Below, piece after piece: positions 12,216-37,177 of a DNA stretch of 64,000 nt. The translations under genes were made by a program, and so were the position numbers. Location: NCBI GenBank assembly GCA_030823955.1, contig JAVBYO010000004.1, positions 1-64,000 on the forward strand. Reading direction: 5' to 3'. The DNA comes from Gallionellaceae bacterium. GTDB taxonomy: Bacteria; Pseudomonadota; Gammaproteobacteria; Burkholderiales; Gallionellaceae. The notes beneath the pieces are model-generated. The model had not been told where the DNA came from and did not search any database. It worked only from the letters and a program-made list of their open reading frames with translations. Position 1 is the first letter of the stretch, and each line of letters opens with the position of its first letter.

Positions 12216-12272
12216 TTTTGAATAACCTGGGCTGCTGCATGGTGCACGTGGCTTGAACGGTTGGAGACGGTG

Positions 12273-16396: not shown

Positions 16397-16537
16397 AAAA
16401 CTGCTGCGAGGTGATGATGCTGCGTTGGAAAGCGTCTCAGAATGCTCATGTACAGCATGTACACTCCGCTTCTGAGCCGTTTTCCGCCTTGCCTGATCGC
16501 CTCTCGCGACGTTTTTCATTTTTCGGTAATTAACTAT

Positions 16538-16894
16538 ATGGCCAAGGACTACGCCAGAACGGATCGTATCGCCGAGCAGATCCAGCGCGAGCTGGCCGGT
16601 CTGGTGCGCCTCGAAGTTAAAGATCCGCGTGTGCAGCGGGTGACCATCACCGGTGTCGAGGTGACCAGCGATTATTCCCATGCCAAGGTGTTCTACACCA
16701 CGCTGGACGGCTCCAGCAAACAACTGCAAGAGGGGCTGGAACGCGCGGCAGGTTTCTTGCGCAGCCAATTGGCACACGCCATGAAGCTGCGCATCATCCC
16801 GCAATTGCACTTTGTCTATGATGTTTCCATCGAGCGTGGAGCCCATCTTTCCCAGCTCATCGACCAAGCCGTGGCCAGTGACAACAAGCATTGA
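16538..16894 (+). CDS. rbfA: 30S ribosome-binding factor RbfA
   Basis: A 118-residue KH-fold factor for 16S rRNA 5'-end maturation. Typical sequence: [26 protein letters not shown], then [15 protein letters not shown] and [21 protein letters not shown] at 16538 gives the conserved [10 protein letters not shown] start; the frame is open upstream from 16442, but that leader is not family-like. It lies 141 bases after infB and 7 bases before truB. Confidence 0.94.
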
Positions 16895-16901
16895 TCTAGG
16901 C

Positions 16902-17828
16902 ATGAAGGCGCGCACCTGGCGCCCACTCGACGGCGTCCTGTTGTTCGATAAGCCACTGGAACTGAGTTCCAATACCGCCCTGCAAAAAGTCCGCCGCTTG
17001 TATCAGGCAGAGAAAGCGGGACATACCGGAACACTCGATCCTCTTGCCAGCGGCTTGTTGCCGGTCTGTTTTGGTGAGGCGACCAAATTCTCCATGGGGC
17101 TGCTCGATGCGGACAAGACCTACCGTGCGACCGTTCGTCTGGGGCTGACCACCACGACCGGCGATGCGGAAGGCGAGGTCATCGCCAGCAAGCCTGTGAA
17201 TGTCACAGCGGAGGGGGTAGAAGGTGTTTTGTCCTCTTTTCACGGTGCGATCCAGCAATTGCCCCCCATGTACAGCGCCCTCAAACATCAGGGAAAACCG
17301 CTGTACGAATACATCCGCAAAGGTGAAACGGTAGAGCGCGCTTTGCGCGATGTGTTCATCCATGACTTGCGCATGACTCGCCTGGAAGGGACGGAGCTGG
17401 ACTTCGTCGTGCGCTGTAGCAAAGGAACCTATGTGCGCACGCTGGCCGAGGATATCGGCGCGGCCCTAGGCTGCGGCGGGCATTTGATCGCATTGCGCCG
17501 TACCGGCATCGCCGCTTTTGATCTGGCGGCCGCGTATACACTGGCTCAGCTTGAGGCAATGGACGACGGGGCGCGTGACGCCGCGCTGTTGCCGCTGGAT
17601 TGTATGTTGCAGGATTTGCCCAGTCTGGAACTGGATGCTGTCGAATTGCAGCGTATGGCACAGGGACAGCGTCTGGGCAAGCAATTGGGTATTCCAGACG
17701 GGAAGTTGCGGCTGTATTCGGCCGGACGCTTCATCGGGGTAGGGGAGTTGCTGGGGACCCGTTTGGCCCCCAGTCGGCTGTTATCCAGCATAGCAAAAAG
17801 CGCCGCAGCCTCGCATTCAGGCTGTTGA
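16902..17828 (+). CDS. truB: tRNA pseudouridine(55) synthase TruB
   Basis: A 308-residue enzyme that makes pseudouridine-55 in the T-loop of tRNAs. The catalytic aspartate lies in GHTGTLDPLASGLLP, with family motifs PPMYSALKHQGKPLYEYIRKG and CSKGTYVRTLAEDIG. The C-terminal PUA-like part is present. ATG at 16902 follows rbfA by 7 bases. Confidence 0.95.
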   Translation: MKARTWRPLDGVLLFDKPLELSSNTALQKVRRLYQAEKAGHTGTLDPLASGLLPVCFGEATKFSMGLLDADKTYRATVRLGLTTTTGDAEGEVIASKPVNVTAEGVEGVLSSFHGAIQQLPPMYSALKHQGKPLYEYIRKGETVERALRDVFIHDLRMTRLEGTELDFVVRCSKGTYVRTLAEDIGAALGCGGHLIALRRTGIAAFDLAAAYTLAQLEAMDDGARDAALLPLDCMLQDLPSLELDAVELQRMAQGQRLGKQLGIPDGKLRLYSAGRFIGVGELLGTRLAPSRLLSSIAKSAAASHSGC

Positions 17829-17893
17829 ATTAACTTGAGTAGGCAGCCCATTCAAGGGTAAAATGCCGCACTTTTTTATTGGAGAGGAAGTAA

Positions 17894-18163
17894 ATGTCTA
17901 TTACCACGGCACAAAAATCGCAGATCGTGACCGATTATCAACGCGCAAAGGGTGACACCGGCTCTCCCGAAGTTCAAGTGGCTTTGATGACAGCTCGTAT
18001 CAACTACCTGACTGACCATTTCAAGGAACACAACAAAGACCATCACTCCCGTCGCGGACTGCTGCGTCTGGTTAGCCGCCGCCGCAAACTGCTCGACTAC
18101 CTGAAGAGCAAGAACGAAGGTGGCTACAAAGAGCTGATCAAGCGCCTTGATTTGCGCAAGTAA
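17894..18163 (+). CDS. rpsO: 30S ribosomal protein S15
   Basis: 89 residues, the standard S15 length, with [20 protein letters not shown] and [21 protein letters not shown]. It binds 16S rRNA in the central domain. The start follows a GGAGAGGAAG ribosome site. It is followed by a hairpin and pnp, the common proteobacterial arrangement. Confidence 0.97.
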
Positions 18164-18172
18164 CACATGACA

Positions 18173-18205
18173 GCGGGTCGCAGATGCGGCCCGCGTCGTT
18201 TTGGT
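18173..18205 (+). terminator. rpsO-pnp intercistronic hairpin
   Basis: GCGGGTCGC (18173-18181) pairs with GCGGCCCGC (18186-18194), a nine-base stem with an AGAT loop, followed by GTCGTTTTGG. It is placed like the E. coli rpsO terminator and RNase III processing region ahead of pnp, so partial termination plus processing is likely. Confidence 0.6.
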
Positions 18206-18263
18206 TGTCGTTGTCATTCATCCCCGGCGTAGTTGCGCCATGTCATTCCGAGAGAGGTCTACC

Positions 18264-20369
18264 TTGAGTCACTATAAGAAAACGATTAGTTACGGCAAAC
18301 ATCAACTGACATTGGAAACCGGCGAGATCGCCCGTCAGGCGACAGGTGCAGTGATGGTCAGCTTGGACGATACGGTGGTGCTGGTCACTGTCGTTGGCGC
18401 AAAGAACGCGAAACCGGAACAAGACTTTTTCCCCCTGACTGTGGACTATCAGGAGCGCACCTACGCTGCGGGCAAGATCCCCGGCGGCTTCTTCAAACGC
18501 GAAGGCCGCCCCAGCGAAAAGGAGATCCTGACTTCGCGACTGATCGACCGCCCTTTGCGCCCGCTGTTTCCAGAGAGCTTCTACAATGAAGTGCAGATCG
18601 TGGCGACCGTTGTGTCGTCCGACGACCAGATCGATTCCGACATCCCTTCGATGATCGGTGCTTCCGCAGCATTGGCGATCTCCGGCATCCCTTTCGACGG
18701 CCCGATCGGCGCGGCGCGTGTGGGTTATCTGAACGGCCAGTATGTGCTGAATCCGACCAAAGACGAGTTGGTGCAGTCGCAGATGGACTTGGTGGTGGCC
18801 GGTACGGCCCAAGCCGTGCTGATGGTGGAATCCGAAGCCCAAGAGCTTTCCGAAGAGGTGATGCTGGGTGCGGTGGTGTTCGGCCATGAACAGATGCAGG
18901 CTGTCATCAATGCCATCAATGAGATGGCCGATGCAATCGGCAAAGACGCATGGGACTGGGAACCGGCGGCAAAGAACGAGTCGTTGATCGCGAAACTGGC
19001 AGAGCTGGCAGAGAAAGACCTGCAAGCCGCTTATGCGGTCCGTCAGAAACAAGCCCGTACCGCCGAAGTGGACGCGATCCGCGCTCGTGTGTTCGAGGCA
19101 TTGACCGCGCAGTTCCCGGATGTCTCCAAGAATCAACTGGGCGAATTGTTCGGCGCACTGGAAGCCAAGATCGTGCGCGGGCAGATCCTCGGTGGTGAGC
19201 CTCGCATCGACGGCCGCGACACCCGCACCGTGCGCCCGATCACCATCCGCACCGGTGTGTTGCCGCGTACCCACGGTTCGGCATTGTTCACCCGCGGTGA
19301 GACTCAGGCTCTGGTTGTGGCGACACTCGGCAGCATGCGCGATTCGCAAACCATCGATGCGCTGCAAGGTGAATACTCCGACCGCTTCATGCTGCATTAC
19401 AACTTCCCTCCGTACTCGACTGGCGAGACCGGACGCGTGGGCACCCCCAAGCGCCGCGAGATCGGCCACGGTCGTCTGGCTAAACGCGCACTGGTGGCGG
19501 TGTTGCCGAGCGAAGAGGATTTCGGCTACGCCATGCGCGTGGTTTCCGAGATCACCGAGTCGAACGGCTCCAGCTCGATGGCTTCGGTTTGCGGTGGTTG
19601 CCTGTCGCTGATGGATGCGGGTGTGCCGGTGAAGACCCATGTCGCGGGTATCGCGATGGGACTGATCAAGGACGGTAATCGTTTCGCCGTGTTGACCGAC
19701 ATTCTGGGTGATGAAGATCATCTGGGTGATATGGACTTCAAGGTGGCCGGTTCCGAGCACGGCATCACTGCCTTGCAGATGGACATCAAGATCAACGGCA
19801 TCACCAAAGAGATCATGAAGGTCGCACTGAGCCAGGCACGCGAGGGACGTATCCATATCCTCGGTATCATGAAGCAGTCGATGCCGACCGTGCGTCCGGA
19901 AGTCTCTTCACATGCACCGCGCATGATCAAGATGAAGATCAATCCTGAGAAGATCCGTGACGTGATCGGTAAAGGCGGTGCGGTGATCCGCGCGTTGACC
20001 GAAGAGACTGGTACAACCATCGACATCGATGATGAAGGTAACATCACCATCGCCTGTGTCAGCGGGGAAGCCGGCGAACTGGCCAAGAAACGTATCGAGG
20101 ATATCGTTGCCGAGGTCGAAGTGGGCAAGACCTACGAAGGCCCGGTGGTCAAACTGCTGGATTTCGGCGCTATCGTCAACATTCTGCCGGGTAAAGACGG
20201 TCTGTTGCATATCTCGCAGATATCCAACGAGCGTATCGCCGCTGTAGCGGATCATCTGAAAGAAGGCCAGATCGTTAAGGTGAAGGTTCTGGAAGCCGAT
20301 GAGAAAGGCCGTATGCGTTTGAGCATGAAAGCCTTGCTGCCACAGGCGGAAACACCCGCCGCCGAATAA
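18264..20369 (+). CDS. pnp: Polyribonucleotide nucleotidyltransferase (PNPase)
   Basis: A 701-residue 3'-5' phosphorolytic exoribonuclease of the degradosome. Two RNase PH-like domains, the second holding [18 protein letters not shown]-type core residues, are followed by KH (about 555-615, [22 protein letters not shown]) and S1 (about 620-690). TTG at 18264 is chosen because GAGAGAGG at 18250-18257 lies six bases upstream and the product starts at the conserved [15 protein letters not shown] at 18240 lacks a ribosome site. Confidence 0.95.
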
Positions 20370-20386
20370 AACCTTGGCGTGCAACA

Positions 20387-20414
20387 AAAAGCCCCGCAAC
20401 TGCGGGGCTTTTTT
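20387..20414 (+). terminator. Bidirectional terminator after pnp
   Basis: AAAA precedes GCCCCGC (20391-20397), loop AACT, GCGGGGC (20402-20408), then TTTTTTGTTTT. With A- and T-runs on both sides it can end pnp and the convergent small gene. Confidence 0.93.
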
Positions 20415-20433
20415 GTTTTCTGTGGGGAAGAAA

Positions 20434-20631
20434 TTATGCTTTGGTATTGATCATCGTTCCTACAGTCTGCCCGCTGGTGTTCATAGAGGGCATCGATTGT
20501 TCCACCGGAGGGGGCGGGGTTCTGACCTCGGCCCTGACTTCTCGCGGCTTTTCCGGGGTGCGCTGGGTCTGCGCCTGCGGTTGAACCGATGGTGAGTTAT
20601 AGCTACCCGGAGAGATCGAATTGATGGCCAT
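20434..20631 (-). CDS. Small Pro/Gln-rich hypothetical protein
   Basis: A 65-residue low-complexity protein (MAINSISPGSYNSPSVQPQA, then PREVRAEVRTPPPP). It has no signal peptide and no recognised domain. Its ATG follows AAAGGAG. The N-terminus (MAINSISPGSYNSPSVQ) resembles that of the 112-residue protein at 24178-24516, also on the minus strand. It converges on pnp across a shared terminator. Confidence 0.55.
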   Translation of the reverse strand: MAINSISPGSYNSPSVQPQAQTQRTPEKPREVRAEVRTPPPPVEQSMPSMNTSGQTVGTMINTKA

Positions 20632-20764
20632 GATGTACTCCTTTAAAGAGGGCGAATGTCACGTCAACGAAAACTTCGGAAAGCCGTGTCACTCGCATGC
20701 GTTACAATTCTGCTCTCTCTTTTAAATGATTTCAAATGGTTTTTTGTAACCATCCAGATATCTG

Positions 20765-21397
20765 ATGCCAAAACTATCGCTTGCCCGTAGCCTTGTCGAG
20801 ACCCTTCCTGCGGGTAGACAGGGACTTTTTAATCCGTGGCGGGACAGCTGTCCGCACGATGCCGCCGGGAATGGCCCGGTTGAGAAGCTGGCGCGTTTGG
20901 CGCTGCATCTGGACTGTGATCCGGAATTCATCCTGGCAGGAGAAGCTCCGGGTTATCAAGGCTGCCGCTATAGTGGCATCGCGTTTACCAGCGAACGCCT
21001 GTTAGGCGAGGGCGCTATCCCGCGCATTCCGGCTTTGACTGGCAGGCTATCGACCAGACGTTTGCCGTTCTCCGAGCCTTCCGCCACCATAGTCTGGAAG
21101 ACACTTTACCGCTTGGGTATCGCCGAGCGCACTGTGCTGTGGAATGCCATGCAATTACATCCGTATCGTCCGGATGAGGTGTGGTCGAACCGTACGCCGT
21201 CCCCGTCCGAGATCAGTCTCGGCGAACCGGCATTACGGCTGTTGATCGCAGCATTCCCTTCCGCCAAAATCATTGCGGTGGGGAAAAAATCGGAAGGCTT
21301 GTTGCGTGAGATGGAGATTCCCATCGCCGGTTGTGTGCGGCATCCCGCTAATGGCGGCGCGACCGAGTTCGCGTCGGGACTGAAGGACATGATGTGA
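20765..21397 (+). CDS. Uracil-DNA glycosylase superfamily protein
   Basis: A 210-residue protein. The motif GEAPGYQGCRYSGIAFTSE (about 59-77) fits motif A of the UDG superfamily, and RHPANGG near the end fits motif B (HPxx). A deaminated-base repair or damage-recognition role is likely, though the substrate is open. Residues 14-20 (LPAGRQG) look like a small inserted palindromic repeat. It lies just before uvrC, another repair gene. Confidence 0.75.
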   Translation: MPKLSLARSLVETLPAGRQGLFNPWRDSCPHDAAGNGPVEKLARLALHLDCDPEFILAGEAPGYQGCRYSGIAFTSERLLGEGAIPRIPALTGRLSTRRLPFSEPSATIVWKTLYRLGIAERTVLWNAMQLHPYRPDEVWSNRTPSPSEISLGEPALRLLIAAFPSAKIIAVGKKSEGLLREMEIPIAGCVRHPANGGATEFASGLKDMM

Positions 21398-21450
21398 GTG
21401 GACATGATTCTGCCTCATCAAAATAATCCCTGCCTACCTTGAACGAGTCT

Positions 21451-23247
21451 GTGTTTGACATCAAAGCTTTCGTCGCGTCGCTGCCTTTGCAGCCCGGCGT
21501 ATACCGCATGCTGGACGACGCAGGGCAGGTGTTGTACGTCGGCAAAGCGGGGCAGTTGAAAAAACGCGTCAGCTCCTACTTCCAGAATACCAACATCTCT
21601 CCGCGTATCCGTTTGATGGTCTCGCATATCGCCCGTATCGAGATCACCGTGACGCGTTCGGAAGCCGAAGCGCTGCTGCTCGAAAACAACCTCATCAAAT
21701 CATTAAAGCCGCGCTACAACATCCTGTTTCGAGATGATAAATCCTATCCGTATATCGTGCTTACCGGGAGTCCGTCGCCACGCCTGACTTATTATCGCGG
21801 TACGACCATCAAGCAGCATCAATATTTCGGTCCCTATCCCAATGCACAAGCGGCGAAGGAAAGTATCAGTCTGTTACAGCGGGTGTTCAAGTTGCGTACC
21901 TGCGAAGATGGGGTGTTCAACAATCGCACGCGCCCTTGCTTGTTACACCAGATCCAGCGCTGTAGTGCGCCCTGTGTCGGCCTGATCAGCCCTGCGGACT
22001 ACGCCACCGATGTACGCAATGCCGCTCTGCTGCTGCAGGGCAGGCATGATGAAGTGGAAAAACGCCTGCGCAGCGCGATGGAACATGCCGCTGAAGTTAT
22101 GCAATATGAACATGCGGCGGTGTTGCGCGACCAGTTGCAGGCATTACATACCGTGCAGCAGAAACAGTTCGTGGAAAGCGGGCGTGACACCGATGCCGAT
22201 ATCGTCGCCGTGGTCGAAGCGGAAGGTGCCTTATGCCTGAATCTGGCAGTGGTGCGTAGCGGACGGCATCTCGGTGACAAAGCGTTCTTTCCCCAGAATG
22301 TGCAGGGGCAGGACAGTGCCGAAGTTTTGGAAGCTTTTCTGACCCAGCATTATCTCGGAAGCGGTATACCTCCTCTGATCGTTAGCAATATCGAGCCGCA
22401 GGATCCGGCCCTTGAGCAATTGCTGAGCGAGCAGGCAGGGCATAAGGTGCAGATACGCCAAGTTGTCACCGGGGAGCGGCGGCGCTGGCTGGAGATGGCA
22501 GAATCCAACGCGCTGCTGGCGTTGCGTCAGCAAGCAGGGCTAAAAGCTGGGCAGGCTTTGCGTTTGGACGAGTTACGCAGGGTATTGTCGTTGCCCGAGG
22601 TGGAGCGTATCGAATGTTTCGATATCAGTCACACGATGGGCGAGGCGACTGTCGCCTCCTGCGTGGTCTACGATACCCTGAGCATCCGTCCGCAGGAGTA
22701 TCGGCGCTACAACATCAGCGGCATCACTCCGGGCGACGATTACGCCGCTATGCGCCAAGCCCTGTTGCGGCGTTACCAGAAACTGCAAGCGGGGGAGGGC
22801 AAACGCCCCGACTTGATCCTGATCGATGGCGGCGCCGGGCAGCTGGCTATGGCGGTGGAAGTGATGGGTGAACTCGGTCTGTCCGACATCGCGCTGGTCG
22901 GTGTGGCGAAAGGGGTGGAGCGCAAACCGGGGATGGAGCAATTGTTACGACCCGGCGCGGAAAAGCCGCTACAATTGCGCTCCGATAGTCCGGCGCTGCA
23001 TCTGATTCAGCAAGTGCGTGATGAAGCCCACCGTTTCGCCATCAGCGGGCACCGCGCCAAACGTGGCAAGGCGCGCACCACTTCATCACTGGAGGATATC
23101 GAAGGGGTAGGTGAAAAACGCCGCCGCAATCTGCTGACCCACTTCGGCGGATTGAAAGGCGTACAGCAAGCCAGCACGGAAGAATTGTCGCGAGTGGAAG
23201 GGATCAGCCCCGCGCTCGCCGAAAAAATTTATCAGCATTTACATTGA
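21451..23247 (+). CDS. uvrC: UvrABC system protein C
   Basis: A 598-residue excision nuclease subunit that makes both incisions in nucleotide excision repair. The GIY-YIG domain covers about 10-95 ([21 protein letters not shown]), UvrB-binding UVR motif about 195-235, an RNase H-like endonuclease domain with ECFDISH and ILIDGG, and a C-terminal HhH pair ([24 protein letters not shown]). GTG at 21451 gives the family-like MFDIKAF start; TTG at 21439 is an alternative. There is no ATG before residue 20. Confidence 0.95.
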
Positions 23248-23250
23248 AAG

Positions 23251-23832
23251 ATGCCACTTAACATACCCAATCTGCTGACCTGGTTCAGAATCCTGATGAT
23301 CCCTGTGTTCATCTCGGTGTTCTATCTGTCCGACGAGACGCTCAGCATGCACAACAAACATCTGGTCGCGACACTGATGTTCGCTGCGGCGGCCATCACC
23401 GATTGGCTCGACGGATATTTGGCGCGGGTGCTGAACCAGACTTCGGCCTTCGGTGCATTCCTTGATCCCGTGGCCGACAAGTTGATGGTCGCTGCCGCTC
23501 TGATCGTTCTGGTGAAACTCGATTACGTGGATGCCATCATCGCCTTCATCATCATCGGGCGGGAGATCGCCATCTCGGCGTTGCGCGAATGGATGGCCCA
23601 GCTGGGCAGCAGCAAAAGCATCGCTGTCTCCATGCTGGGAAAGGTAAAAACCACGTTTCAAATGGTCGCGATATTGCTGTTGCTGTATCACGAGTCTGTG
23701 CTGGGGCTGCGCGCGGACCAGGTAGGGACGCTACTCATCTATGTCGCTGCACTGCTCACCCTGTGGTCCATGGTGTATTACCTGATGCTGGCCATGCCGC
23801 AGATCACGAAAAAAACTCGCAAAGCAAATTGA
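23251..23832 (+). CDS. pgsA: CDP-diacylglycerol-glycerol-3-phosphate 3-phosphatidyltransferase
   Basis: A 193-residue inner-membrane enzyme committing CDP-diacylglycerol to phosphatidylglycerol. The CDP-alcohol phosphotransferase signature DG-x2-AR-x8-G-x3-D-x3-D is intact in DWLDGYLAR and GAFLDPVADK. There are about five hydrophobic helices. It begins three bases after uvrC, a linkage common in proteobacteria. Confidence 0.95.
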   Translation: MPLNIPNLLTWFRILMIPVFISVFYLSDETLSMHNKHLVATLMFAAAAITDWLDGYLARVLNQTSAFGAFLDPVADKLMVAAALIVLVKLDYVDAIIAFIIIGREIAISALREWMAQLGSSKSIAVSMLGKVKTTFQMVAILLLLYHESVLGLRADQVGTLLIYVAALLTLWSMVYYLMLAMPQITKKTRKAN

Positions 23833-23857
23833 TTTTTTGTCGCTTGGTCTGTATAGT
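23829..23857 (+). promoter_or_regulatory. Promoter of the Pro-Arg-His tRNA cluster
   Basis: TTGATT (23829-23834) and TATAGT (23852-23857) with a 17-base spacer lie 11 bases before tRNA-Pro. The -35 overlaps the pgsA stop codon. Confidence 0.6.
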
Positions 23858-23867
23858 GCCGCCTCTT

Positions 23868-23944
23868 CGGGGTGTAGCGTAGCCTGGTAGCGCGCCTGCT
23901 TTGGGAGCAGGATGTCGGGAGTTCGAATCTCTCCACCCCGACCA
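23868..23944 (+). tRNA. tRNA-Pro (TGG anticodon)
   Basis: 77 bases with encoded CCA. Acceptor CGGGGTG pairs with CACCCCG. The anticodon loop TTTGGGA gives TGG, and the T-arm carries GAGTTCGAATCTC. Confidence 0.97.
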
Positions 23945-23983
23945 GGTTTGTTGTAGAAGTCTTATTGGTCACCGAAAAGAATT

Positions 23984-24060
23984 GTGCCCGTAGCTCAACC
24001 GGATAGAGCACCAGCCTTCTAAGCTGGGGGTTACAGGTTCGATTCCTGTCGGGCACGCCA
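23984..24060 (+). tRNA. tRNA-Arg (TCT anticodon)
   Basis: 77 bases with encoded CCA. Acceptor GTGCCCG pairs with CGGGCAC, the anticodon loop is CTTCTAA, and the T-arm carries CAGGTTCGATTCCTG. Confidence 0.97.
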
Positions 24061-24073
24061 ATCTCAAGTCAAT

Positions 24074-24150
24074 GGTGGCTGTAGCTCAGTTGGTAGAGCC
24101 CTGGATTGTGATTCCAGTTGTCGACGGTTCGAGCCCGTTCAGCCACCCCA
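24074..24150 (+). tRNA. tRNA-His (GTG anticodon)
   Basis: 77 bases including G-1 (24074), which pairs with C73, and encoded CCA. Acceptor GTGGCTG pairs with CAGCCAC. The anticodon loop contains GTG. Confidence 0.96.
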
Positions 24151-24177
24151 GTTTCCCCTTTATTATTTCTCTAGCGG

Positions 24178-24516
24178 CTAGGCGTAAGTGTTGATTCGCT
24201 TATTTTCTTGCGCATTTTGCCGTTGCCGCATTTCAAGTGCTCTGGCTTCATCTCTTGCTTGAGTGTCTAATTTTTCAGTTGCCGCTTGATCAGTACGATT
24301 TAATTTCTGTATCCGTTCCGCGTGATCTTCAGAAGCAGTCTGTTTATTTTCCTCGGCCCGTTGCATATCGCGAGCCTGCGCAGACAATTCGACCATCACC
24401 GACTCATGCCGATCTTGTTGTGTCGGCCCCTTGTGCACCGGAGGAGGTGTGGTCGGTTTGGCGATTTGACCGGTTGAGACGCTTGGACGAGAGGTATTGA
24501 TGTTTGAAATGGCCAT
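24178..24516 (-). CDS. Small charged hypothetical protein
   Basis: A 112-residue protein: a Pro/Thr-rich N-terminus (MAISNINTSRPSVSTGQ, PTTPPPVHKG) followed by a long hydrophilic, probably helical and coiled region rich in Glu, Gln, Arg and Ala (DMQRAEENKQTASEDHAERI onward). It has no signal peptide. A MAI-opening, Ser/Pro-rich N-terminus is shared with the 65-residue protein at 20434-20631. The family is not recognised. Confidence 0.6.
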   Translation of the reverse strand: MAISNINTSRPSVSTGQIAKPTTPPPVHKGPTQQDRHESVMVELSAQARDMQRAEENKQTASEDHAERIQKLNRTDQAATEKLDTQARDEARALEMRQRQNAQENKRINTYA

Positions 24517-24683
24517 GACATGCTCCCATAACGTAACTTGCCGTGAGATAACTATCGTCCGCTCATTCTATCAAACAGCGCGATCATATTCATCTTCCAC
24601 GGTAGAAAGGCTGGCCGATTCGGTTTACTATCGAACAGGCAGCTCAGGAAATGATTCGATCAATCGCAACGCGGGGAAAGAAT

Positions 24684-25637
24684 ATGACAACACTACTTGA
24701 ACAATTGAAGTCCATGACTGCAATCGTCGCCGATACCGGTGATATCGAGGCTATTCGCCGTCACCGGCCGGAAGATGCAACCACCAATCCATCGCTGTTG
24801 CTTAAAGCGGTCACACTGCCGGAATACGCGCCTCTGATCGATGATTCCATTGCTTGGGCGAAGGCGCAAAGTAATGACCGAGACCAGCAGATCCATGATG
24901 CGAGCGATAAACTTGCGGTCGATGTCGGACTGGAGGTGTTAAAAATCGTCCCGGGACGCATTTCCACCGAAGTGGATGCCCGGTTGTCTTTTAATACTCA
25001 GGCCACATTGGCCAAAGCTCGTAAACTGATCCGCCTGTATAACGAAGCAGGCATGAGCAACGAAAAAGTGCTGATCAAGATTGCGTCTACTTGGGAAGGA
25101 ATCCGCGCGGCAGAGATATTGGAGCATGAGGGTGTCCATTGTAATTTGACCCTGATGTTCGGCTTTTCCCAGGCGCGTGCCAGCGCCGAGGCTGGTGTAA
25201 CCCTGATCTCGCCGTTTGTTGGGCGTATCATGGATTGGTACAAAGCTAAAGGCGACGGTTCGAGTATCCCGCCAGAACAGGATCCCGGAGTATTGTCAGT
25301 GCGCCGCATCTATCAGTATTACAAGGAGTATGGCTATCCAACCACCGTCATGGGCGCATCATTCCGCAGCAGCGGCGAGATCATTGCGCTCGCCGGATGT
25401 GATCGGCTTACGATCAGCCCCAATCTACTGGAGGAACTTCAAAAAGCTGAGGGGGTATTGGAACGTCGTCTGCAATACCAAGGTTCGGTGAAGCCGCGTC
25501 CGGCATCAATGACAGAAGCTGAGTTCAGATGGGAAATGAATGAGGATGCAATGGCTACAGAGAAATTGGCCGAGGGGATACGCGGATTCACCGTTGATCA
25601 AATCAAACTGGAAAAAGCACTGGCCGAGCGTTTGTGA
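24684..25637 (+). CDS. tal: Transaldolase
   Basis: A 317-residue enzyme of the non-oxidative pentose phosphate pathway, matching the TalB length. The Schiff-base lysine lies in [12 protein letters not shown], with family signatures [24 protein letters not shown] and [15 protein letters not shown] at 24684 follows GGGGAAAG. It is monocistronic, ended by a hairpin before dif. Confidence 0.95.
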
Positions 25638-25651: not shown

Positions 25652-25679
25652 GAGGGGGCGATTTGCCCCCTCTAATTTT
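25652..25679. terminator. Terminator between tal and tatD
   Basis: GAGGGGGC (25652-25659) pairs with GCCCCCTC (25665-25672) around a GATTT loop, followed by TAATTTTG. It ends tal transcription. Its reverse side is less T-rich, so action on the tatD side is uncertain. Confidence 0.85.
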
Positions 25680-25687: not shown

Positions 25688-25715
25688 ATTTGACATAATA
25701 TACATTATGCGCAAA
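25688..25715 (-). other. dif: dif site (XerC/XerD chromosome dimer resolution site)
   Basis: Read on the minus strand this 28-base site has the XerC arm TTTGCGCATAA, the central region TGTATA and the XerD arm TTATGTCAAAT. The E. coli dif site has GGTGCGCATAA, TGTATA and TTATGTTAAAT, so the match is 25 of 28. It lies in an intergenic gap where gene orientation switches from mainly rightward to mainly leftward. XerC/XerD act here under FtsK control to resolve chromosome dimers at the terminus. Confidence 0.92.
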
Positions 25716-25731: not shown

Positions 25732-26505
25732 TCACGCCCCCAAAAACAACCGATTGAAATTATGGGTCGTTGCCGTGGCGACCTCTGCCAGCGATATGTT
25801 ACGCAGCCTGGCAATCTCCTCCGCAACATGTTTCACATAGGCAGGTTGATTGGTCTTACCCCGATATGGCGTCGGTGCAAGATATGGCGAATCGGTCTCG
25901 ATCAATATCTTTTCCAGCGGGATGTGCTGAGCCACTTCTTTGATCTGATGTGCATTCTTAAAGGTCAGGATGCCGGAGAACGAAATATGAAAGCCTTGCG
26001 CGATGGCGGCTTCTGCGGTTTGCAGATTTTCGGTGAAACAATGCATCACACCGCCAGCTTCCCCCGCATTTTCTTCAGCCATGATGTCCAAAGTATCTTG
26101 AGCCGCCGAGCGAGTATGGATGATGAGTGGCTTACCACATGCACGGGCGGTACGAATATGAGTACGGAAACGGTCACGCTGCCATTCAAGATCACCTTGC
26201 AGACGGTAATAATCCAGCCCAGTTTCCCCGATCGCCACGACTTTTGGGTGTTGAGACAAGCGAATCAGTTCAACTTGATCCGGCTCACTCTCCAATTCGT
26301 AATCGGGATGAATGCCAACAGAGGCATATAGATTAGGATGATCGTCAACGAGCTGTAGGAGTCGAGGCAATCTCTGCAAATCGACTGAGACACATAAGGC
26401 ATGAGTAACACCGTTAGCCGTCATATTGGCCAATATCTGGCCTATATTTTCGGCCAACTCTGGAAAATCCAAGTGACAATGGGAATCGATGAAGGTGTCA
26501 GCCAT
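25732..26505 (-). CDS. TatD-family metal-dependent hydrolase
   Basis: A 257-residue TIM-barrel hydrolase with the family metal ligands: DSHCHLDF at the N-terminus, GETGLDYY, HTRSA, MHCFTEN and ETDSPYL. Family members act as 3'-5' DNases or in RNA quality control. It is last in the fab-tmk-holB cluster, ending 17 bases from the dif site. YcfH is the E. coli paralogue found after holB, so this copy probably corresponds to it. Confidence 0.93.
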   Translation of the reverse strand: MADTFIDSHCHLDFPELAENIGQILANMTANGVTHALCVSVDLQRLPRLLQLVDDHPNLYASVGIHPDYELESEPDQVELIRLSQHPKVVAIGETGLDYYRLQGDLEWQRDRFRTHIRTARACGKPLIIHTRSAAQDTLDIMAEENAGEAGGVMHCFTENLQTAEAAIAQGFHISFSGILTFKNAHQIKEVAQHIPLEKILIETDSPYLAPTPYRGKTNQPAYVKHVAEEIARLRNISLAEVATATTHNFNRLFLGA

Positions 26506-26512: not shown

Positions 26513-27517
26513 TTAAACGAATAATTTCCTATAAGACAGCAAGATAGACTCGAATTGCAACTTCGAATTCAGTGGATGATAAGCTTCTCGCTTGGCCGTC
26601 AGCAGCTCTTTCTGGAAACGCAGCAAGCGTATGGCAGGCATATTAGAAGACAGCTTCTGCAACGTCTCCAGTTGTTGCGGAAAGTATCTGGCCCGACCGG
26701 CGAGTTTGCTACTAGCCAAGTCATAACACCATTGCTGCAAGCAATGGATGACCAATACAGCAGGGCTACGCTGTAATTTCTCCGCCAGCGCCAAAGCATC
26801 CAATTGCATCGGCCTTTGAATCTCCGCCAACAGGATATTGCGCTCTTCCGTCCCTTCCCCTTCCTCAGCCCAGTGTAAGGCTTGCAAGGGAGCGAAGCCG
26901 GACTGCGCCAGAGCATTCTCCGGGTGATCGACACCTTGCTGCTTAAGCCAGGCCAAGCCCAGCTCCCTGCTTGGCGTAGCGACGGAAAAACTCAGGCAAC
27001 GACTCAATATCGTGGGTAACAGCTGTTGTGGTTTATGAGTGACCATGAGGAACAACAGCTTTTCCGTAGGCTCTTCCAATGTTTTTAGTAGTGCATTGGC
27101 GGCATTGTTGTTCATGGACTCTGCCGGATGAAGCAAAACGATGCGGTATCCTCCCCGGTGGGCGGACAGATTGGCGAAACCCGCCAGTGCCCGGATTTGA
27201 TCCACACCGATCTCACGAGAGGGCTTTTTCCCGCTTTCCTTTTCACTCCCCTCGTCCGCGACATTCAAAGCATCTGGCTGAATGGAACGAAAATCGGGGT
27301 GTGTGCCTTGTTCGAACCAGCGGCAGGCGTCACATTCACAGCAAGGTAGACCTGATTGCAAAGGAGATTCACACAACAGGGATTGTGCAAAATTCTGGGC
27401 CAGTTCCAATTTGCCTATCCCTTGCGCCCCTTTGATCAAGAGTGCATTGGGCAAGCGGCTGCGTAGGCCCTGCAAACTTAGCCAAGTTTCATTTTGCCAA
27501 GAATATAGCTCTTTCAT
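26513..27517 (-). CDS. holB: DNA polymerase III subunit delta'
   Basis: A 334-residue clamp-loader subunit. It has an AAA+ domain with IKGAQGIGKLELA (degenerate P-loop, normal for delta') and a zinc module with cysteines in GLPCCECDACRWFEQGTHPD. Sensor-type sequence LLHPAESMNNNAANALLKTLEEP and TILSRC follow. ATG at 27517, just after the tmk stop, is chosen over a 51-residue extension that would overlap tmk. Confidence 0.93.
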   Translation of the reverse strand: MKELYSWQNETWLSLQGLRSRLPNALLIKGAQGIGKLELAQNFAQSLLCESPLQSGLPCCECDACRWFEQGTHPDFRSIQPDALNVADEGSEKESGKKPSREIGVDQIRALAGFANLSAHRGGYRIVLLHPAESMNNNAANALLKTLEEPTEKLLFLMVTHKPQQLLPTILSRCLSFSVATPSRELGLAWLKQQGVDHPENALAQSGFAPLQALHWAEEGEGTEERNILLAEIQRPMQLDALALAEKLQRSPAVLVIHCLQQWCYDLASSKLAGRARYFPQQLETLQKLSSNMPAIRLLRFQKELLTAKREAYHPLNSKLQFESILLSYRKLFV

Positions 27518-27518
27518 T

Positions 27519-28127
27519 TCATATTGATGCAATGATTTTTTGAAGATTTTGTTGAACTTCATCCCTGCTCTGTTCAGCATGGATGAGCGCGAATCTGGAA
27601 GGCATCTTCTGGCTGCGGGCAAGGTAAGCTTGGCGGACCTTTTCAAAGAATCCACCTTGTTCCTGCTCAAAACGATCCAGTGATGCGTTGTTCGCCAAAC
27701 GTTGACGCGCTACCTCGATGGGAATATCGAAGAGCAACGTCAGGTCGGGTTGCAGGTCGCCATGTACCCACTGTTCGAGTTGCTCCAGCTTGGAGATCGA
27801 TACCCCTCGTCCTCCACCTTGATAAGCGAAACTGGCATCGCTGAAGCGGTCGGATATGACCCAAGTACCGCGTTGCAAGGCCGGACGGATGACTTGTTCG
27901 ACATGTTCCCGTCGGGCGGCAAACATCAGCAAAGCTTCTGTTTCGGCATGCATCGGCTGATTCAGTAATATCTCGCGCAGACGCTCACCCAAAGGTGTTC
28001 CTCCTGGCTCACGGGTTACGAGCAAGTCTATCCCCTTCTGCCGTAAAGATTGGGCGAACCATTCCAGATGGGTGCTCTTGCCGGCGCCGTCGACGCCCTC
28101 GAAAGTAATAAATTTCGCTGTGCTCAT
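27519..28127 (-). CDS. tmk: Thymidylate kinase
   Basis: A 202-residue enzyme phosphorylating dTMP to dTDP. P-loop [27 protein letters not shown] (the DRX-partner region) and [17 protein letters not shown] are present. It overlaps mltG by four bases and leads directly into holB. Confidence 0.95.
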
Positions 28128-29110
28128 TTTTGGTACCGGTTCACCGCATTGATATGCTCGGTCAGACTACTTGAAAAATAGGAACTTCCATCCCCCTTGG
28201 CGACAAAATAGAGCGCACTGGTTTGTGCCGGATGCAATGTCGCCTGTATCGCAGCCAGGCCGGGCAATGCGATTGGGGTCGGGGGCAGCCCTCCCCGAGT
28301 GTAGGTATTGTAGGGCGTGTCCGTAAGCAGATCGTTCTTGCGCAGGTTGCCGTCGAACCGATCTCCCATGCCGTAGATCACCGTGGGATCGGTCTGTAGC
28401 AACATACCCTTGCGCAAGCGGTTGATGAATACCGCTGCGATCATGTTGCGATCACTGGCTTTGCCAGTCTCCTTCTCGACAATGGAAGCTAGGATCAAGG
28501 CCTGATAGGGGGTATCCAATGGCAGGCTTGCGGCACGGTTCTTCCAGCTTTCCTGCAAATTCCGCTGCATCAACTGGTAGGCGCGTTTAAGCACGGTCAG
28601 GTCACTGTTACCGCTGGAGAAATTATAGGTATCGGGAAAGAACATGCCTTCCGCCCTCCCCTCCGGAGCGCCGATACGCTGCATGATTTCAGCTTCGGAT
28701 AGCGACAAGGTATCGTGCCGTAATGTTGGCTCGGCGTTCAATGCTGCACGCAACTGCTTGAAGCTGTGTCCTTCGATGATACTGATCTGGCTCTGCGAAA
28801 CCTGTCCTTTGCTCACCATCTCCAACAGTTGCAAGGGGCTGACTGCGGTCTCTATCTGATAGTTGCCCGGTTTGATCTGCGCGGCTTTGCCCAGGCCCCG
28901 AGCCAAGAGCACAAACAGCCACTCGCCGGACAATACGCCGGCCTGAGTCATCTGGCGGGCGGCACTTTTCAGACTGCTCCCCTGTTTGAGCGAAAATTCG
29001 TACGGTAATTTTGAAAAGGGTAACGGGCGCACCGCATAGAAGGTCGCAAGTCCAGCCAGTAACAGGATGATGAAGACCATCCACAACAGGAATTCTTTAA
29101 TCGGGGTCAT
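28124..29110 (-). CDS. mltG: Endolytic transglycosylase MltG
   Basis: A 328-residue inner-membrane enzyme that cuts nascent peptidoglycan strands. There is an N-terminal transmembrane helix at about residues 8-27, a LysM-like region, then the YceG catalytic domain with [11 protein letters not shown] and the catalytic glutamate in [14 protein letters not shown]. The C-terminus holds [15 protein letters not shown] and [17 protein letters not shown]. It overlaps pabC by 14 bases. Confidence 0.95.
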
Positions 29111-29912
29111 GATTCAGCCAATCTCGTATCTCATGGGCAACAGGATGGTGGGTACAACGGTAACCGGGCAGTTCTTTTACCGGCCACAGGCCATGCACCG
29201 AATTCACTAAAAATATCTCGTCGGCCAGTAATAGTTCGGCGAGGGGAATGTCACGAATCCGGCAATCTACGCCCTGCTGTTTCGCCCAGGCAAACACACG
29301 TTCGCGTTGCACCCCTGCCACCCCGCAACGGGACAGATCGGGCGAGGATAATCTCCCCTCCTTCACCATGAAGATGTTGCTGCGCACCCCTTCGATGACA
29401 TAACCGGCCTCGTCCAGCAGCAACCCTTCAGCGATAGCCGGGGCATCCCATTCCATCGCCGCCAGCACATTCTCCAAACGGTTAAGGTGTTTTATCCCGG
29501 CCAAACGCGGCTGGTGGCCCAAACGTAAACGGCAAAGATGCAGTGTTACCCCTGTATCGGCGAAATGCTCTGGAAATCTTGGCGCTTCACTCAGACTGAG
29601 CAGACGCGTCCCGGTCGATGCTCGCGGCGGCATATAGCCACGCGGCCCCGTTCCGCGCGTCACTGTAATCTTCACCACGCCATCCGAGACATCCCCGGTC
29701 AGGCGTGACAAATCATCCTGCAACAAGGACTCAGAGGGGCAAGCCAGATAGAGTGCGGAACAGTCTGACGCCAGCTTGGCGTAGTGCCTAGGCCAATGTA
29801 GTACTTTCCCGCCGCTTAGACGCAGGGTGCGAAAGACGCCGTCGCCATAGAGGAAGCCCCGCTCGTTTACGCTAATCGTGTCACACGGCTCTCCGTTGAT
29901 CAGCGTAGTCAC
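29097..29912 (-). CDS. pabC: Aminodeoxychorismate lyase
   Basis: A 271-residue PLP enzyme (fold type IV) releasing 4-aminobenzoate from aminodeoxychorismate for folate. Family sequence: RGFLYGDGVFRTLRL, the PLP-lysine region GIKHLNRLENVLA, and EGVRSNIFMV. The start is GTG at 29912. It sits between fabF and mltG, as in E. coli. A D-alanine or branched-chain aminotransferase is less likely given this context. Confidence 0.92.
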   Translation of the reverse strand: MTTLINGEPCDTISVNERGFLYGDGVFRTLRLSGGKVLHWPRHYAKLASDCSALYLACPSESLLQDDLSRLTGDVSDGVVKITVTRGTGPRGYMPPRASTGTRLLSLSEAPRFPEHFADTGVTLHLCRLRLGHQPRLAGIKHLNRLENVLAAMEWDAPAIAEGLLLDEAGYVIEGVRSNIFMVKEGRLSSPDLSRCGVAGVQRERVFAWAKQQGVDCRIRDIPLAELLLADEIFLVNSVHGLWPVKELPGYRCTHHPVAHEIRDWLNHDPD

Positions 29913-29926
29913 GGCAAGGGTAGATT

Positions 29927-31159
29927 TCAGATCTTGCGGAATACCAGCGAGCCGTTGGTGCCACCGAAGCCGAAATTATTGTTCACGGCCACATCGATCT
30001 TCATCTCTCGTGCCGTATTGGCGCAGTAGTCCAGATCGCACTCAGGATCTTGCTCAAAGATATTGATGGTCGGAGGTGAGACTTGGTGATGTAATGCCAA
30101 GACACAGAACAACGATTCGATGCCGCCGGCCCCGCCCAGCAAGTGTCCGGTCATCGACTTGGTGGAGTTCACCACGAGTTTTTTGGCATGATCGCCGAAA
30201 GCTAGCTTGATTGCTTCCGTCTCGTTCTTGTCACCCAGCGGGGTCGAAGTGCCATGTGCATTGACGTATTGCACTTGATCCGCATTCAGACCCGCATTGC
30301 GCAACGCATTGACCATGCTGCGTTTTGGCCCGTCCGTGCTCGGTGCGGTCATGTGGTAGGCATCGGCACTCATGCCGTAGCCGGAAAGCTCGGCGTATAT
30401 CTTGGCGCCGCGCGCCTTGGCGTGTTCGTATTCTTCTAGCACCAGCACACCAGCGCCTTCGCCCATCACAAAACCGTCGCGGTCCTTGTCCCAAGGACGG
30501 CTGGCTGTTGCCGGATCGTCGTTGCGGGTGGACAGCGCTTTGGCAGACGAGAAACCGCCAATCGCCAAAGGTGATACGGTTGCCTCAGCACCACCGGCGA
30601 TCATCACATCGGCATCACCGTATTCGATGATACGGGCCGATTCGCCGATACTGTGCGTACCGGTGGTGCATGCCGTAACCACGGAGAAGTTTGGCCCCTT
30701 CAACCCATACATGATGGACAGGTTGCCGGAGATCATATTGATGATCGTGCCAGGAATGAAGAACGGCGAGATCTTGCGCGGCCCACCGGCCAGATAGTCG
30801 TTATGCGTATCTTCGATCATCGGCAGCCCACCGATACCCGAGCTGATACAAACTCCGATGCGTTCCGCATTCTGTTCAGTGACCGTCAGACCGGAGTCCT
30901 TGAATGCTTCCATACCGGCTACCAAGCCAAAATGGACGAAACGATCCATACGTCGCGCGTCTTTTGCAGGCAAATACTGAGTCACATCGAACCCCTGTAC
31001 TTCTCCCGCGACTTGGCAGGCAAACGCGCTGGCATCAAAGTGGCTGATGCGCGAGATACCCGATTTTCCTGCAAGGATGTTCTGCCAAGCGGGGGCGACA
31101 CCCACCCCTACTGGCGACACGACACCCAAGCCAGTAACGACGACTCTGCGTTTAGTCAA
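29927..31159 (-). CDS. fabF: 3-oxoacyl-[acyl-carrier-protein] synthase II
   Basis: A 410-residue elongating condensing enzyme. The active-site cysteine is in [13 protein letters not shown], and the two histidines lie in [12 protein letters not shown] and [13 protein letters not shown]. The product opens [12 protein letters not shown] from TTG at 31159 with GGAG upstream; no ATG is available before residue 80. It lies between acpP and pabC. Confidence 0.96.
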
Positions 31160-31204
31160 ACTGAACTCCGCTAATGAGGTAAAAAAACGGTCAACCGGAG
31201 ACGA

Positions 31205-31441
31205 TTATTGGGGATGTGCGTTGACGTAGTCGATTGCTTGTTGCACAGAGGTGATCTTTTCTGCATCTTCATCAGGGATCTCGCAACCGAATTCTTCTTC
31301 GAGCGCCATCACCAGTTCCACTGTATCCAGAGAGTCGGCGCCCAGATCGTTGACGAACGAAGACTCGTTCTTGACTTCCGACTCATTCACGCCGAGTTGC
31401 TCAGCTACGATTTTCTTGACGCGTTGTTCGATGTTAGACAT
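31205..31441 (-). CDS. acpP: Acyl carrier protein
   Basis: A 78-residue acidic carrier. The phosphopantetheine serine is in [19 protein letters not shown]. It sits between fabG and fabF, the standard place. The wider gaps on both sides (45 and 78 bases) fit separate, high-level expression. Confidence 0.97.
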
Positions 31442-31519
31442 TCCATTACTCCCGTTTTAATTAAAGTTCAAAAAGCGCCCGCATTCTACCAAACTTGTGC
31501 CGATTTCCAAAACACCGGC

Positions 31520-32266
31520 TTATTCCATGTACATTCCGCCGTTCACATGCAGTGTGACCCCAGTGATATAGGCCGCACCGGGGCCTGCCAAGAATGCCAC
31601 TGCTGCGGCGATATCGGCAGGTTGGCCCAAGCGTTTCAGGGGTACATGCTCGACCAGTTTAGCGCGTTGTTCCTCGCCCAATGCGTGTGTCATATCGGTA
31701 TCAATGAAGCCGGGAGCGACGCAATTCACGGTGATGTTGCGGCTACCGATCTCCTGCGCCAGCGATTTGGTGAAGCCGATCATGCCGGCTTTGGATGCGG
31801 CATAGTTAGATTGGCCCGGATTGCCGGAACTCCCGACCACCGAGGAGATACTGATGATGCGCCCGCCCCTGGCTTTCATCATGGCGCGCAATACCGCGCG
31901 GCTCAGACGGAACACCGATTTGAGGTTGGTGGTCAGCACATCGTCCCACTCTTCCTCGGACATGCGGGCCAGCAGGTTGTCCTTGGTGATACCGGCATTG
32001 TTCACCAGGATCGAGATCTCGCCGAATTCTGCACGCAGGGTCGTCAAAACCTGTTCGGTCTGTGCGGCATCATTGACGTTCAGGGCAAAGCCCTTGCCCT
32101 TGATGCCGGCAGCAGCCAGATAGTCGCTGATGGCTTGGGCGCCCTTCTCGCTGGTCGCGGTACCGACCACGGTTGCGCCCTGCTTGCCCAGTTCCAGCGC
32201 GATGGCTTGTCCGATCCCGCGCGAAGCGCCGGTCACCAGTGCGATCTGTCCTTGCAGTGTAGTCAT
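31520..32266 (-). CDS. fabG: 3-oxoacyl-[acyl-carrier-protein] reductase
   Basis: A 248-residue short-chain dehydrogenase using NADPH. Cofactor motif TGASRGIG, structural NNAG, and the catalytic serine and YAASKAG tyrosine/lysine set are present. It lies 11 bases after fabD. Confidence 0.96.
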   Translation of the reverse strand: MTTLQGQIALVTGASRGIGQAIALELGKQGATVVGTATSEKGAQAISDYLAAAGIKGKGFALNVNDAAQTEQVLTTLRAEFGEISILVNNAGITKDNLLARMSEEEWDDVLTTNLKSVFRLSRAVLRAMMKARGGRIISISSVVGSSGNPGQSNYAASKAGMIGFTKSLAQEIGSRNITVNCVAPGFIDTDMTHALGEEQRAKLVEHVPLKRLGQPADIAAAVAFLAGPGAAYITGVTLHVNGGMYME

Positions 32267-32277
32267 GCTTTCTCCTC

Positions 32278-33210
32278 TTAAGCGAGTGCAGCCAGGGCTG
32301 CTTTCAGGGCTTCGCCGTCATTGATGGCTATCGCCTGCTGGTTGGTGTCGATACGCTTGCTCAGTCCGGCCAGTACCTTGCCCGGCGCGCATTCCACATT
32401 ATGGGTGATGCCCTGCTTGCCGAAAGCCTGTACGGTCTCGACCCAGCGTACCGGCGAATACAACTGGCGCACCAGCGCATCCTTGATCTTCGCGCCATCA
32501 TTATAAGAGGCGACATCGGCATTGTGCAGCACCGGGATGGCCGGCGCCTGCACGTTGACGTTGTTCAGATAGGCACGCAGTTGTTCCGCCGCGCCTTTCA
32601 GCAGGCTGCAATGCGACGGAACGCTCATCGGCAGCATGATCGCGCGCTTTGCACCTTTGGCCTTGGCCAGCTCCATGCCGCGCTCGACTGCGGCGCGGTT
32701 GCCAGCGATGACCACTTGGCCTGCGGAATTGAAATTCACCGCTTCCAGCACCTCGCCCTGTGCACCTTCGGCACAGACGGCGCGCACGACGTCATCGTCC
32801 AGACCGAGAATGGCGGCGATACCGCCCACACCTTCCGGCACGGCTGTCTGCATGCACTGGGCGCGGTAGCGCACCAGCGGCAAAGCATCGGCAAAGCTCA
32901 ACGCGCCCGCCGCGACCAGCGCGGTGTATTCGCCCAGACTATGTCCGGCCATGATGGTCGGCTTGGCACCGTTCTGCGATTGCCAGGCACGGTACACCGC
33001 CACACCGGCGGCCAGCATGATGGGCTGGGTGTTCACGGTGGCGTTCAGGTCGGCATCGGCGCCTTCGGCGACCAGTTGCCACAGGTCCTGTTTCAGCACG
33101 TCGGATGCTTCAGTGAAGGTGTCGCGCACGGCGGCGAAGTCGGCATAGCCGTTCATCATGCCGCGCGACTGGGAACCCTGACCGGGGAATACGAAAGCGA
33201 ATTGAGTCAT
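32278..33210 (-). CDS. fabD: Malonyl CoA-acyl carrier protein transacylase
   Basis: A 310-residue enzyme loading malonate on ACP. The nucleophile is in GHSLGEYTAL, with the catalytic histidine in SVPSHCSLL and an N-terminal FPGQGSQ. It lies 11 bases after fabH. Confidence 0.96.
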   Translation of the reverse strand: MTQFAFVFPGQGSQSRGMMNGYADFAAVRDTFTEASDVLKQDLWQLVAEGADADLNATVNTQPIMLAAGVAVYRAWQSQNGAKPTIMAGHSLGEYTALVAAGALSFADALPLVRYRAQCMQTAVPEGVGGIAAILGLDDDVVRAVCAEGAQGEVLEAVNFNSAGQVVIAGNRAAVERGMELAKAKGAKRAIMLPMSVPSHCSLLKGAAEQLRAYLNNVNVQAPAIPVLHNADVASYNDGAKIKDALVRQLYSPVRWVETVQAFGKQGITHNVECAPGKVLAGLSKRIDTNQQAIAINDGEALKAALAALA

Positions 33211-33221
33211 TTATATATACC

Positions 33222-34151
33222 CTACCACTTGATGAGAACTGCGCCCCAGGTGAAACCACCACCGACGGCTTCCAGTAGAATGTTCTGTCCGGTCTTGATG
33301 CGACCATCACGTACGGCGGTGTCGAGTGCCAGCGGGATAGAGGCGGCCGAGGTATTGCCATGACTGGCAACAGTTACCACCACGTTCTCCATCGCCAGCC
33401 CCAGTTTCTTGCCTGTTGCTTCGATGATGCGGATATTGGCCTGATGCGGCACCAGCCAGTCGATGTCTGCACCAGTCAGTCCTTGAGCCTCCAGCACTTC
33501 CTCAACTACTTCACTCAATACCTTGACTGCAAACTTAAATACCGCCTTACCATCCATGGAAATAGTAGGATCAGCCTTCAACATATGACGGTGGATACCA
33601 TCCGCGTGTAGCTTGGCCGCCACGATTCCGGGTTGCTCCGAAGCACGCAGGATCACCGCTCCCGCGCCATCACCAAACAAGACGGAGGTAGTACGATCAT
33701 TCCAGTCGAGCATGCGGGATAATACTTCTGCTCCTACCACCAAAACCGTGCGAGCCTGCCCACCGCGAATATACATATCTGCTGTGTTCAATGCATAAAC
33801 GAATCCCCCGCACACGGCCTGCATGTCGAAGGCTGCTCCACCATTCCTGATACCCAGCTTGTCTTGCAAGATGCAGGCCGTGCTGGGGAAAGGCATATCA
33901 GGCGAAGTGGTCGCCACAATGATCAAATCGATCTCTTCGGCTTGTATACCGGCGGCCTCGATGGCTTTGCGGCTGGCATGCAGGGCAAGGTCGCTGGTCA
34001 ATTCGTCGTCTGCGGCGAAATGACGCTCGACGATACCGCTGCGAGTCACGATCCAGTCATGCGAAGTCTCCACGATCTTTTCCAGATCGTAGTTGGTCAA
34101 CGTCTTGGCGGGCAGGTAGCTGCCCGTGCCGATGATCTTGGAATATATCAA
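33222..34151 (-). CDS. fabH: 3-oxoacyl-[acyl-carrier-protein] synthase III
   Basis: A 309-residue initiating condensing enzyme. The Cys-His-Asn triad is visible in [21 protein letters not shown] and [11 protein letters not shown]. The start is TTG at 34151, overlapping the plsX stop by four bases (TTGA), so translation is probably coupled. The next ATG would truncate the fold. Confidence 0.95.
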
Positions 34152-35185
34152 CTTGCCTCCCCCGCTGTTTGCTGGCGTGCGTTATGCCACTTTTCGATGT
34201 GTTCGCTAATGTGGCTCAACATACCGCCGCGCGCTTCTTCAGCAGCGCGTTCGATGGCACAAAGGAATGCAAAAGAGTCTGCGGAACCGTGGCTTTTCAC
34301 CACGATACCCTTCAGCCCGAGGAAGCTGGCACCGTTATAACGACGATGATCCAATCTGTGCTTGAATGCTTTGAGCACCGGGAAAGACACGATCGCCCCC
34401 AGCTTGGTATACCAGTTTTGGCTGAAGCCCTCTTTCAGAAAGCCGCCCATCATTTTAGCGACCCCTTCGGCAGTCTTCAGGGCGACATTACCAACGAAAC
34501 CGTCGCACACCACCACATCGGTGACCCCCTTGAAAATATCGTCGCCTTCCACGTTGCCGTAGAAATTAAGGTCGCTGGCTTGCAACAGTTCGGCGGCCTG
34601 CTTGACCACTTCATTGCCTTTAATGTCTTCGCTACCGATATTCAGCAGGCCGACAGTAGGGCGTTCTTTATGTTCCAGTGCGGAGACCAGCGTGCTCCCC
34701 ATCAGCGCGAATTGCAGCAGATGTTCAGCGCTACAATCCACGTTCGCGCCCAGATCAAGCATACAGACCTGGCCTTTGTTGGTGGGCAGAAAGGAAGCGA
34801 TGGCGGGCCGATCAATACCCGGCAAAGTTTTCAGCACATAACGTGCGGTCGCCATCAGCGCACCGGTATTGCCAGCGCTGACACAAGCCGAGGCGTCACC
34901 GCTCTTCACCAGATTGATGGAGACACGCATGGAAGAATCTTTTTTGCTGCGCAACACGATCTGCGGCGATTCATCCATCCCCACCACCTCTGTGGCAGCA
35001 TGGATACGCAGCCGAGCCTGCTCCTTGAAGCCGAGTTTTAGCAACTCGGCTTGGATAGGATCGGGCTGACCGACCAGGGTGATGACATCGTCAGGATGAT
35101 TCTTCAGATAAGCGACTGCCGCGGGAACGGTCACCCGTATCCCGTGGTCGCCGCCCATGGCATCGATAGCTATCGTGATACCCAC
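34148..35185 (-). CDS. plsX: Phosphate acyltransferase PlsX
   Basis: A 345-residue enzyme making acyl-phosphate from acyl-ACP for phospholipid synthesis. Typical sequence: [36 protein letters not shown] and [10 protein letters not shown]. The start is GTG at 35185. It follows rpmF and leads into fabH. Confidence 0.95.
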
Positions 35186-35954: not shown

Positions 35955-36020
35955 AAGGCGCGCATGATATATATTCTGGCCTACTCTGTCAAAAGATGCA
36001 TCGATGCACTAAGGAATATC

Positions 36021-36605
36021 TTGGATCCTCAACCGCTTGTTCTTGCCTCCACCTCTATATATCGAAGCGAACTGCTCGCCACCCTGAAAATACCCTTTCG
36101 GGTCGCGGCACCCAATGTCGATGAGACCCCGCTTCCGGGCGAAGATGCTCCACAGACTGCGCTACGCCTCTCGCAACTTAAGGCACAAGCCGTCACCAAA
36201 GAGCATCGGAATGCCCTGATCATCGGCTCCGATCAGGTTGCCCTGCTGGAGGGAGTGCAACTGGGTAAACCGCTGACGCACGACAACGCCGTATTGCAAT
36301 TAAAGGCCATGCGCGGTAAGACGGTCGCCTTCCACACTGCGCTGACATTGCTTAACGCAGTCGACGGTACGATGCAAAGCGATCTGGTGGAGACCCAAGT
36401 CAGTTTCCGCCCAATCAGCGATGATGAGATCGAACGCTACCTGAAGAAAGAGCAACCTTACCATTGTGCCGGAAGCGCAAAATCCGAGGGACTGGGGATC
36501 GCCCTGATCAGTCGCATACAAGGAGATGACCCCAATGCCCTGATCGGACTCCCCCTGATTAGCCTTGTAAGCATGCTTAGGAAACAAGGGATTGCAATTT
36601 TATAA
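36021..36605 (+). CDS. Maf-family nucleotide pyrophosphatase (YceF type)
   Basis: A 194-residue house-cleaning pyrophosphatase. ASTSIYRSELL, DETPLPGE, IIGSDQVA and the KSEGLG loop fit the YceF subgroup, which hydrolyses 7-methyl-GTP. TTG at 36021 is chosen because AAGGA lies five bases upstream and the length then matches YceF. An ATG at 35964 would add 19 unlike residues. It is divergent from yceD, a common neighbour. Confidence 0.88.
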   Translation: MDPQPLVLASTSIYRSELLATLKIPFRVAAPNVDETPLPGEDAPQTALRLSQLKAQAVTKEHRNALIIGSDQVALLEGVQLGKPLTHDNAVLQLKAMRGKTVAFHTALTLLNAVDGTMQSDLVETQVSFRPISDDEIERYLKKEQPYHCAGSAKSEGLGIALISRIQGDDPNALIGLPLISLVSMLRKQGIAIL

Positions 36606-36701
36606 CGCTATTTGAACCAAACTTTAAGTTGCTAGCACTGCGACTTTCTGTTATTAAAGCGCGCTTAAAAATTTTTGCCCGTACTCGGAGACTCAGAAGA
36701 A

Positions 36702-37124: not shown

Positions 37125-37149
37125 ATCCCTCGCTGTATTGCTCGCCCAG

Positions 37150-37177
37150 AAGCCTCCTTTGATCAGGAGGCTTTTTC
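37150..37177 (+). terminator. Terminator after dksA
   Basis: AAGCCTCCT (37150-37158) pairs with AGGAGGCTT (37165-37173) around TTGATC, followed by a T-run. Confidence 0.93.

Follow-up and report, generated by a model that had tools for sequence, protein, structure and literature searches.

The window analyzed here is a 64-kb stretch of DNA, the first part of a 135.5-kb contig (C36) of a Gallionellaceae-like MAG, which is ~85% complete and comprises 36 contigs totalling 2.25 Mb. Two convergent genes, tal for transaldolase (24,651-25,637, plus strand; TIGR00874, E = 6e-150) and a gene of the tatD nuclease family (25,732-26,505, minus strand; TIGR00010, E = 1e-86), leave a gap of 94 bases between their stops at 25,637 and 25,732. 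A terminator-like hairpin of tal occupies the near side of this gap (25,652-25,672, plus strand), with a 9-bp stem containing 7 G-C pairs and a T-rich tail. The 28-bp sequence that we regard as the dif site (25,688-25,715, minus strand) starts 15 bases after the hairpin and is separated from the stop codon of tatD by 16 bases. On the tal side lies the block rimP-nusA-infB-rbfA-truB-pnp-(UDG-like)-uvrC-pgsA (11,751-23,832, plus strand; assigned with NCBIfam and Pfam), and on the other side a fab-type block composed of plsX, fabH, fabD, fabF, pabC, mltG, tmk, and holB precedes tatD (26,513-35,185, minus strand; NCBIfam). Both blocks are directed toward dif, as are tal and tatD. The closest named relatives of this TatD were found in Sideroxydans and other Gallionellaceae MAGs, with identities of 78% or lower, and this similarity, rather than a phylogenetic tree, is the basis on which we place the genome in the Gallionellaceae.

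Read directly in the window, the minus strand of 25,688-25,715 is TTTGCGCATAATGTATATTATGTCAAAT, in which an XerC-side arm of 11 bp (TTTGCGCATAA) and an XerD-side arm of 11 bp (TTATGTCAAAT) flank the 6-bp centre TGTATA. The first-pass annotation had proposed a minus-strand dif at this very place, and its sequence, strand, and coordinates turned out to be exact. The site shares with the dif of Escherichia coli, the target of XerCD-FtsK, the length of 28 bp, the 11-6-11 layout including the conserved XerD arm, an identical centre, and 25 of the 28 letters; it differs from the latter in three letters (positions 1, 2, and 24) and in the flanking genes. The same annotation had called for a comparison with the dif sites of related betaproteobacteria. 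Published sites of this group, such as ACTTCGCATAATGTATATTATGTAAAAT of Methylobacillus flagellatus, are mostly intergenic and near the skew maximum and have the core CGCATAATGTATATTATGT in common with ours (PMC2731167). Differences between the window and the published sites are confined to position 24 and to the outer part of the XerC arm, where variation is expected within this group.

A location between convergent genes and beside a terminator hairpin is also what could be anticipated if the sequence were a palindromic, A+T-rich intergenic stretch arisen by chance, for instance a part of a bidirectional terminator. Nevertheless, no match with three or fewer mismatches to dif appeared in 100 shuffles of the window sequence. 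Furthermore, the same site was detected in 87 of the 120 genomes of the family (15 genera sampled), nearly always as a single copy, and its 22-base core shows almost no variation, while the genes on either side are not the same from one genome to another. Such conservation refutes the chance or terminator origin in practice, and we assign it a negligible probability.

Within the 64-kb window, 25,688-25,715 is the sole dif match. The search was extended to all 36 contigs (2.25 Mb), as had been suggested earlier for a second copy of the 28-base site, and the dif pattern yielded a single match at three or fewer mismatches and no second dif-like site in this ~85% complete MAG, the missing ~15% of which may hold another copy. 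The copy number bears on the idea that the sequence is not the chromosomal dif but an attachment site of, or left by, a mobile element (an IMEX or phage att site, or a plasmid pdif module). Mobile elements do employ dif-like sites (PMC6449649 and PMC9765430). However, besides being single in the genome, the site is flanked by core genes on both sides (tal and tatD), coincides in position with the switch of the GC skew (see below), and recurs next to tatD across many families. A mobile origin is thus highly improbable, if slightly less so than the origin by chance.

With the genome split into 36 contigs, the GC skew of the whole chromosome was replaced by that of the full C36, a part of a second contig (C29), and two complete relatives. 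Over the entire 135.5 kb of C36, the cumulative GC skew reached its maximum at 26,035, approximately 330 bp from dif. This distance counts as close, because the median between dif and the skew maximum in published proteobacterial cases is 7,277 bp (PMC2731167); a strong correlation between the position of dif and the shift points of the skew has been known as well (PMC3025954). In blocks of 5 kb, the skew of C36 was positive up to 25 kb and negative or close to zero in all of the blocks thereafter. A two-level fit to 1-kb blocks of the window placed the change point at 26 kb, and none of 2,000 permutations was fitted equally well. The dnaA gene of the same MAG was found on C29, at the minimum of the cumulative skew in the part of that contig analyzed. 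The complete relatives gave a consistent picture. In one of them (G046), the skew was positive in all 11 of the 20-kb windows sampled before dif and negative in all 9 after it, and in another (G050) the cumulative maximum over a 200-kb stretch was 3.2 kb from dif. In the eight single-contig genomes of the family (G020, G046, G050, G056, G057, G066, G068, and G085), dif lies at about 44-54% of the chromosome from dnaA, i.e., opposite dnaA. The earlier proposal that the window spans the replication terminus is therefore borne out.

Single proteins exceeded the cut-offs for XerC (TIGR02224, E = 5e-110) and XerD (TIGR02225, E = 5e-118) in the genome, as in the E. coli system. Altogether, the reading of the site as dif and of its surroundings as the terminus is strongly supported, since the site occurs in a single copy, coincides with the skew switch in a genome carrying the genes for XerC and XerD, and is conserved opposite dnaA in the complete relatives. 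We conclude that 25,688-25,715 is an ordinary chromosomal dif site of the known XerCD type, with a probability of roughly 0.97, and that it provides a fixed point for the terminus in this fragmented, Gallionellaceae-like genome.

By analogy with E. coli, the TTTGCGCATAA arm would be bound by XerC and the TTATGTCAAAT arm by XerD. In a dimer formed from sister chromosomes by homologous recombination, septal FtsK would bring both copies of dif together and activate XerD and then XerC, and the strand exchange across TGTATA would free the monomers. Dif lies at the meeting point of the two replication forks, and the strand composition accordingly changes sign there. The gamma domain of FtsK was not found in the MAG (~85% complete). 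As all of the seven congeners searched carry this domain, its absence is likely an assembly gap, the corresponding sequence being among the missing portion. Regarding KOPS (GGGNAGGG), the octamers that orient FtsK, 18 copies point toward dif and 3 away from it. Twelve of 55 control patterns with rearranged letters did equally well, and the controls averaged 13.4 toward versus 3.3 away. As evidence for dif, the KOPS polarity adds nothing to the strand skew and does not count as independent support, although it had looked favourable before the comparison with the controls.

The genes around dif follow the direction expected at a terminus as a broad trend, and to this extent the switch in gene direction described in the first-pass annotation holds. 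All of the genes assigned to families between 7.2 and 25.6 kb run rightward. The switch is incomplete, as a Rep-like helicase gene (2,026-4,014, minus strand) and long frames on the minus strand at 4.5-6.7 kb run leftward on the left side, and maf, glgB, and pgi (35,964-41,562, i.e., 36.0-41.6 kb, plus strand) run rightward amid the mostly leftward genes on the right side.

The proximity of nusA-infB and the fab cluster to the terminus had been called unusual for highly expressed genes; the high expression of these genes in this organism is an assumption. In the window, infB is ~9.3 kb from dif. The distances between the two on the same contig across the family are 9 (the window), 31, 48, 49, 52, 59, 62, 62, 76, 80, 93, 96, 107, 117, 122, and 158 kb, albeit pairs on fragmented contigs are biased toward closeness. 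In five of the eight complete (single-contig) relatives, infB was found 53-124 kb from dif, i.e., within 125 kb, and the two are 649-790 kb apart in three complete genomes from two other genera of the family. The transcription of infB is toward dif in all of the family cases listed. In a sample of 24 genomes from the order, all complete or nearly so, the median distance of infB from dif is 19% of a replichore, and 79% of these genomes have infB in the half closer to the terminus; eight of the 24 come from the family, and the sample is thus not independent of it.

For the fab side, mltG served as the marker; its distance from dif in the window is 2.4 kb. This gene is located less than 10 kb from dif in 21 of the 64 same-contig cases, representing 9 of the 20 families tested in the order, and the requirement that both share a contig selects for close pairs. 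In these 21 cases, mltG is always directed toward dif, and dif has the same orientation (the same strand) in 20. Of the 20 single-contig genomes, four have mltG less than 10 kb from dif, where random placement of a gene would give 0.15, and three of the four come from one family. Neither placement is an anomaly: core genes for translation and lipid synthesis near the terminus are the norm of the lineage, infB being near dif in the majority of the complete relatives, and simply closer in the window, and the mltG/tatD end lying beside dif in nearly half of the families tested.

Of 80 named loci retrieved by TatD, 19 have dif downstream of tatD and on the strand of that gene, and none has it upstream; in the closest four, dif begins 49-82 bases past the matched TatD stretch. 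The neighbourhood of tatD and dif looks like an old, inherited arrangement of many betaproteobacteria, and the inertia of the inherited gene order explains the adjacency most simply. The constancy of direction and orientation in the mltG and TatD counts would also fit a true dif beside which selection, not inertia alone, maintains the tatD-fab end, for example by preventing essential operons that converge there from extending across the terminus, or by fixing the terminus region. Shared ancestry suffices to give the same pattern, however. Moreover, the block is hundreds of kb from dif in three genomes of the same order (G020, G260, and G358), and the few single-contig genomes with mltG near dif are mostly of a single family. 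We therefore consider selection on the neighbourhood unlikely. It is equally doubtful that dif has been fixed downstream of the mltG-tmk-holB-tatD end since before many betaproteobacterial families split, with selection at the terminus holding a region prone to rearrangement. Our literature search found no paper with both tatD and a dif site, and the arrangement could still have been reported already. The recurrent adjacency of tatD and dif provides a handy landmark of the terminus in betaproteobacterial assemblies.

On a finer scale, the gene next to dif is less constant. In 30 loci of the family outside the genus, tblastn placed none of Tal, TatD, HolB, PgsA, UvrC, and Tmk within 1.5 kb of dif, and therefore the closest neighbour of dif varies in the family. 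A genus mate (G004; locus L012 on contig C207) possesses holB-tatD, dif, and then pgsA-uvrC, with no tal in between, in contrast to 23,251-25,637 of the window. As dif lies between tatD and pgsA-uvrC in this genome, tal was gained, lost, or moved beside dif within the genus, and we regard this as a local difference. In a second congener (G002; locus L011, C92:1433-1458), the only dif-like site has no tatD neighbour within 1.5 kb. Its arms match otherwise, and its centre is TGCGCA instead of TGTATA, possibly representing a variant dif centre or a site borne by an element.
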